This document shows, one piece after another, positions 12,821 through 13,432 of a DNA stretch of 33,617 nt. The stretch spans positions 1 to 33,617 of the forward strand of contig JAFGSS010000055.1 of the NCBI GenBank assembly GCA_016934555.1, written 5' to 3'. Source of the stretch: Acidobacteriota bacterium. GTDB lineage: Bacteria > Acidobacteriota > UBA6911. Both the position numbers and the translations under genes were made by a program. The notes under the pieces were generated by a model, which did not search any database, had not been told where the DNA came from, and saw nothing but the letters and a program-made list of their open reading frames with translations. Position 1 is the first letter of the stretch, and the number at the start of each line of letters is the position of its first letter.

Positions 12821-13432
12821 ATGTCATCTGCAAAAGTAGGAGCCAAAGCGCCGGAGTTCGAGGCGCCGGCCTATTACAAGGGCGGATTTACCACGGTGAA
12901 ATTATCCGATTTCCAGGGCAAGTGGGTGATGCTCTGTTTTTATCCCGGGGATTTCACCTTCGTTTGAGCGACCGAAGTGTCAGCGGTCGCTGCCAAATTC
13001 GACGAGCTTGCAAAGCTGGGTGTTGAAGTCATCTCCATGAGCGTGGACAGCCAGTTCGTGCACAAGGTCTGGAACGACCAGGAACTGTCCAAGATGGCCA
13101 AGAAGGACATCCCTTTCTACATGGCTTCGGACGGGGGAGGGAATATCGGATCGCTCTACGGCGTTTACGATCCGGAGGACGGCGTGGATTACCGCGGCCG
13201 CTTCATCATCGATCCCGACGGCGTTATTCAGGCGATGGAAGTGTTGACCCCGCCGGTCGGACGCAAATTCAACGAGACCGTCCGCCAGATCCAGGCCTAC
13301 CAGTACGTACGTGCCGCCAAGGGGACCGAAGCGTGCCCCGCGGGCTGGGAGCCGGGGAAGAAGACGCTCAAGCCGGCGCCGGAGCTGGTCGGCAACGTAT
13401 GGAAAGTCTGGGATCCGTTTACGGATCACTAG
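12821..13432 (+). CDS. Selenocysteine-containing AhpC/Prx1-type 2-Cys peroxiredoxin (in-frame UGA at 12965-12967 read as Sec49)
   Basis: Manual translation from ATG 12821: [48 protein letters not shown][U][157 protein letters not shown] replaces the peroxidatic Cys of PxxxTxxC; resolving Cys (EACPAGW) retained; frame open on both sides of the TGA; SECIS-like hairpin downstream. The ORF track shows only 12977..13432. Confidence 0.93.
12968..12996 (+). promoter_or_regulatory. Candidate bacterial SECIS element (GGUC apical loop)
   Basis: After the TGA: GCGACCGAAGTGT-CAGC-GGTC-GCTG-CCAA. CAGC (12981-12984) pairs with GCTG (12989-12992) around GGTC (12985-12988), 17 nt after the UGA; U at 12980 is unpaired or mismatched below the apical stem. 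A competing perfect 7-bp stem GCGACCG/CGGTCGC (12968-12974 / 12984-12990) also exists. Confidence 0.75.

Follow-up and report, generated by a model that had tools for sequence, protein, structure and literature searches.

Organisation of the prxU locus

The window, i.e. the whole 33,617 nt stretch of Acidobacteriota DNA analysed here, holds a peroxiredoxin reading frame that is open from ATG to TAG apart from a single TGA codon (Table 1). On comparative sequence evidence the gene is almost certainly prxU, encoding a selenocysteine (Sec) peroxiredoxin in which the UGA at codon 49 would be read as selenocysteine through a hairpin immediately downstream. The TGA codon, the continuation of the frame back to the ATG, the peroxidatic motif and the retained EACPAGW motif were all found in the sequence as described in an initial annotation. 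The same annotation had pointed out an open reading frame beginning within the gene, and our mechanical ORF finder placed the gene start at the same GTG codon.

Table 1. Features of the prxU locus, with positions numbered along the window.
Feature	Position	Strand	Basis
AGGAGA, probable ribosome-binding site, 8 nt 5′ of the ATG	12807..12812	+	sequence; inference
prxU, 203-aa selenocysteine-containing peroxiredoxin, AhpC/Prx1 type	12821..13432	+	ATG to TAG (TAG 13430-13432), Pfam and NCBIfam matches
Cys39, invariant in 85/85 Sec-PrxU loci	12935..12937	+	locus comparison
TGA, Sec49, peroxidatic position	12965..12967	+	frame and homologue alignment
Spurious shorter ORF, GTG start, 151 aa, output of gene callers	12977..13432	+	mechanical ORF finder; database cluster P0005
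Unpaired U at base of apical stem, place of E. coli SECIS U17	12980	+	fold comparison; PMC8659212
bSECIS apical hairpin CAGC-GGUC-GCUG	12981..12992	+	covariation, fold, bSECIS model constraints
Cys172, canonical resolving Cys in EACPAGW	13334..13336	+	sequence and alignment

With Cys172 the protein has the C-terminal resolving cysteine that characterises typical 2-Cys peroxiredoxins. The N-terminal extension known from other PrxU proteins is absent in the window, where the frame 5′ of ATG 12821 contains several TGA codons and no GCxRP motif. An AlphaFold model computed from the single sequence had a mean pLDDT of 39.6 and, being poor, was left unused.

Family assignment and known relatives

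Domain and family searches were run on the protein with Cys read in place of Sec. The translated gene matched the Pfam domains AhpC-TSA and 1-cysPrx_C, and its membership in PrxU was given by NCBIfam NF040737, a curated equivalog with a cut-off of 270 bits, which was matched with 375.5 bits over model positions 35-231 of 233. The AhpC equivalog scored 191.7 bits against its cut-off of 272, and the other peroxiredoxin equivalogs likewise remained under their cut-offs. The protein shares its sequence family and the C-terminal resolving Cys motif with the AhpC/Prx1 typical 2-Cys peroxiredoxins, but differs from them in having Sec for Cys, Ala for Pro at the following position, and a score below the AhpC cut-off.

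PrxU is already a known selenoprotein family, to which the window gene adds a member. Peroxiredoxins with a TxxU motif are a catalogued family of bacterial selenoproteins (PMC1794560; PMC13188914); the 2006 catalogue lists 12 peroxiredoxin selenoproteins, and four selenoproteins in Acidobacteria (PMC1794560). With this catalogued family (PF00578) the window gene has in common the TxxU motif, the UGA codon, the bSECIS element and selA/selB/selD, and it differs in species alone. Knowledge of Sec as the peroxidatic residue dates back to 2001, when the selenocysteine peroxiredoxin of Eubacterium acidaminophilum was described by Sohling et al., as cited in PMC13188914 (reference 83).

PrxU of Peptoclostridium (Eubacterium) acidaminophilum, encoded on plasmid NZ_CP007453.1, was 70% identical to the window protein over 197 aa. 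Its gene has TGA at the same codon in the same UATE context, and an apical hairpin CAGC-AGUU-GCUG in the same place as that of the window gene. At the resolving site, however, P. acidaminophilum has Ala (EVAPSGW) where the window protein has Cys, and it carries an N-terminal extension of about 35 aa with a GCARP motif, which the window protein lacks.

Conservation of the TGA codon

Homologous loci were fetched by similarity, and 85 close relatives in which the motif was found were compared. In the alignment around FTFV[U/C]xTE, TGA occupied the peroxidatic codon in 85/85 of these loci, which came from many phyla, with bin labels including Acidobacteria, Calditrichota, KSB1, Neomarinimicrobiota, Chloroflexi, Zixiibacteriota, Thauera, Thiobacillus and others. 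Across the genomic loci of the family the codon counts were 85 TGA, five TGC and two TGT, with TGG at none. Hence an in-frame UGA is aligned to the redox-active Cys and conserved in relatives, by which bacterial selenoproteins are recognised. Two congeners shared the TGA at 96% and 88% protein identity, and base-calling error is therefore excluded for practical purposes.

The residue following Sec was Ala in the PrxU consensus and Pro in a few members, and Ala at this place is accordingly not peculiar to the window gene. The proposal that an RNA stem containing the GCG codon dictates this Ala found no support, as the residue is the family consensus and the hairpin with that codon is not conserved.

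The SECIS element

The apical hairpin occupies positions 17-28, numbered from the U of UGA, with a 4-bp stem and the loop GGUC at 12985-12988, and is spaced from the UGA by 17 nt. Its signature was sought by covariation among 84 distinct homologues, in which 561 pairs of conserved four-fold-type codons were compared. The third positions of codons +5 (Ser) and +8 (Ala), which form the sole freely variable pair of the stem and are both synonymous at the protein level, were complementary in all 84 homologues (G-C 37, A-T 32, C-G 11, T-A 4). Their mutual information, 1.64 bits, was the highest of the 561 pairs, the runner-up reaching 0.44; on a tree from which the region had been left out, the pair required 12 or more changes. 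In the loop, codons +6 and +7 were almost frozen at their third positions (82/84 each), whereas comparable sites elsewhere were free. These alignments demonstrate selection on an RNA element downstream of the UGA, as far as comparison of sequences can, and two synonymous sites that covary without exception offer a clean mark by which PrxU SECIS elements can be recognised.

The hairpin conformed to the published bSECIS limits in the size of its loop, a G within the first two loop residues, the length of its stem and the 17-nt spacing. The constrained fold of the window SECIS had an energy of -9.7 kcal/mol, within the published energy limit; under constrained folding 20 of 81 homologues failed to reach -7.5 kcal/mol. 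The unpaired U12980 was conserved in 79/81 homologues and lies 6 and 7 nt 5′ of loop residues G12986 and U12987. In the E. coli SECIS, U17, G23 and U24 matter for SelB recognition, and the spacing of U17 to G23/U24 equals that of U12980 to G12986/U12987 (PMC8659212).

The minimum-energy fold of the naked segment was another, longer hairpin, GCGACCG/CGGUCGC, which includes the Ala GCG codon. This hairpin was predicted in just 33 of the 81 homologues and its pairs were not conserved, for which reason it was rejected as the functional SECIS in favour of the shorter apical stem at 12981-12992. The 5′ arm of the long hairpin would presumably be covered by the ribosome once the UGA had entered the A site, and when the first 15 nt were removed, the apical hairpin was predicted in 75/81 homologues. 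Of the downstream RNA stem suggested earlier, the conserved stem itself is thus retained, and the GCG codon lies outside it. An Rfam search gave no match at gathering score in this region; a weak match to mir-74 at 13034-13098, below its cut-off, was taken as chance.

Selenocysteine machinery

Profile searches of the genome to which the window belongs identified selB (377 bits), selA (563 bits) and selD (369 bits), all above their cut-offs. The selD gene (contig C149; positions 290-1280 of locus L017) has an in-frame TGA itself (TTAAGUAAKMG) and is, by its sequence, a selenoprotein gene. No tRNA-Sec gene (selC) scored above the RF01852 cut-off in the 233-contig draft; among the RF01852 matches in this genome, ARAGORN assigned the top three to tRNA-Ser and the other checked ones to tRNA-Phe and tRNA-Arg. 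A tRNA-Sec with anticodon TCA was present in 9/9 other genomes of the genus. When the selC neighbourhood of the closest congener (locus L132) was aligned to the draft, it led to contig C69, the end of which (position 5024) corresponds to about position 1685 of L132; selC lies at 1501-1599 there, ca. 86 nt beyond the point where C69 stops. Because the contig stops just before the syntenic selC, and all nine congeners have the gene, the gap is best explained by assembly. Consequently, three of the four genes on which the initial annotation made its Sec reading depend are found in the organism's own draft genome, with the fourth best accounted for by a contig end.

Alternative readings and database entries

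The reading as a Sec-containing peroxiredoxin of AhpC/Prx1 type, proposed initially from the window alone, is strongly backed by family membership, TGA conservation, the covarying bSECIS and selA/selB/selD. A pseudogene or a sequencing error, in which the TGA would be a broken Cys codon (TGC or TGT), is conceivable in so far as Cys forms occur in the family, but it is very improbable when independent assemblies of 96%, 88% and still lower identity share the TGA, when it recurs in every one of the 85 loci across phyla, and when synonymous sites 3′ of it are under selection at the RNA level. Just as improbable is a real stop at the TGA, with the 151-aa protein from GTG 12977 as the product. Such an ORF exists and is the form held in databases, yet its protein would be without the active-site part, its GTG is situated between the UGA and the apical hairpin of the SECIS, and the part upstream of the TGA is conserved as protein (88-96% in congeners).

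In the protein library the majority of full-length relatives show FTFVW, and at least 81 have WA at the Sec position (FTFVWATE-like), as would be expected if TGA were read as tryptophan (code 4). A tryptophan codon, TGG, was nevertheless found at this position in no genomic locus, and Trp would abolish the peroxidatic centre in a genome that possesses selA/B/D. Moreover, the nifU-like gene in the window (27027-27992) ends in TGA as a normal stop, so the codon is not generally reassigned here, and we regard the tryptophan reading as highly unlikely. The FTFVWATE entries probably represent TGA translated with table 4 on short contigs of metagenome protein sets. The 151-aa form, starting VSAVAAKYDE, comprised 17 sequences on 22 contigs in public data, in agreement with the expectation that standard annotation would yield a truncated protein. 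PrxU genes are thus lost from databases in two ways, either cut at the UGA, whereby the N-terminal quarter is dropped, or displayed with Trp at the catalytic position. With the Sec reading preferred, the locus confirms that an uncultured lineage, of which a congener has been deposited as an Acidobacteria MAG, encodes a selenoenzyme.

Proposed mechanism and resolution of the selenenic acid

Comparative sequence analysis established the identity of the gene, its Sec codon and its SECIS, from which a mechanism may be proposed. On the ribosome, SelB carrying Sec-tRNA would bind the hairpin immediately 3′ of the UGA, with its apical loop GGUC and the unpaired U at the stem base, and the in-frame UGA of codon 49 would thereby be read as selenocysteine. 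As a peroxidase, Sec49 would reduce peroxide and become a selenenic acid, which Cys172 of the partner subunit would most likely resolve to a selenylsulfide; thioredoxin would then act as electron donor and reduce the selenylsulfide. A thioredoxin reductase gene was identified in the window at 2823-3776 (366.3 bits vs cut-off 343.45), not in an operon with prxU.

Among the 85 Sec-PrxU loci, the C-terminal resolving Cys was kept in 34 and lost in 51, where Thr (43) or Met (8) was found, whereas the Cys at Sec-10 was invariant. The N-terminal GCxRP extension was present in 65/85 loci. As a stand-in for the lost resolving Cys this extension was rejected, since it occurs with both states of the site (Cys 28, Thr 33, Met 4). 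The C-terminal Cys may have become dispensable within Sec-PrxU, whereas that at Sec-10 is not replaced, and we therefore tentatively suggest that Sec-PrxU proteins might resolve the selenenic acid by a non-classical, i.e. not 2-Cys, route; the window protein, having both cysteines, could then be an intermediate or dual-mode form.

Other genes in the window

A GEGP-motif diheme cytochrome gene was located at 15436-16614 on the + strand (NF041762, 333 bits vs cut-off 300); a multihaem cytochrome-like ORF rich in CxxCH motifs ends close by, at 14888. The nifU-like gene and a nifS gene lie side by side at 27027-29219 on the + strand. On the - strand, 29280-32303 holds an aldehyde:ferredoxin oxidoreductase-like gene, scoring below the curated cut-off, next to a gene for a ferredoxin-like 4Fe-4S subunit whose N-terminus resembles a signal sequence.
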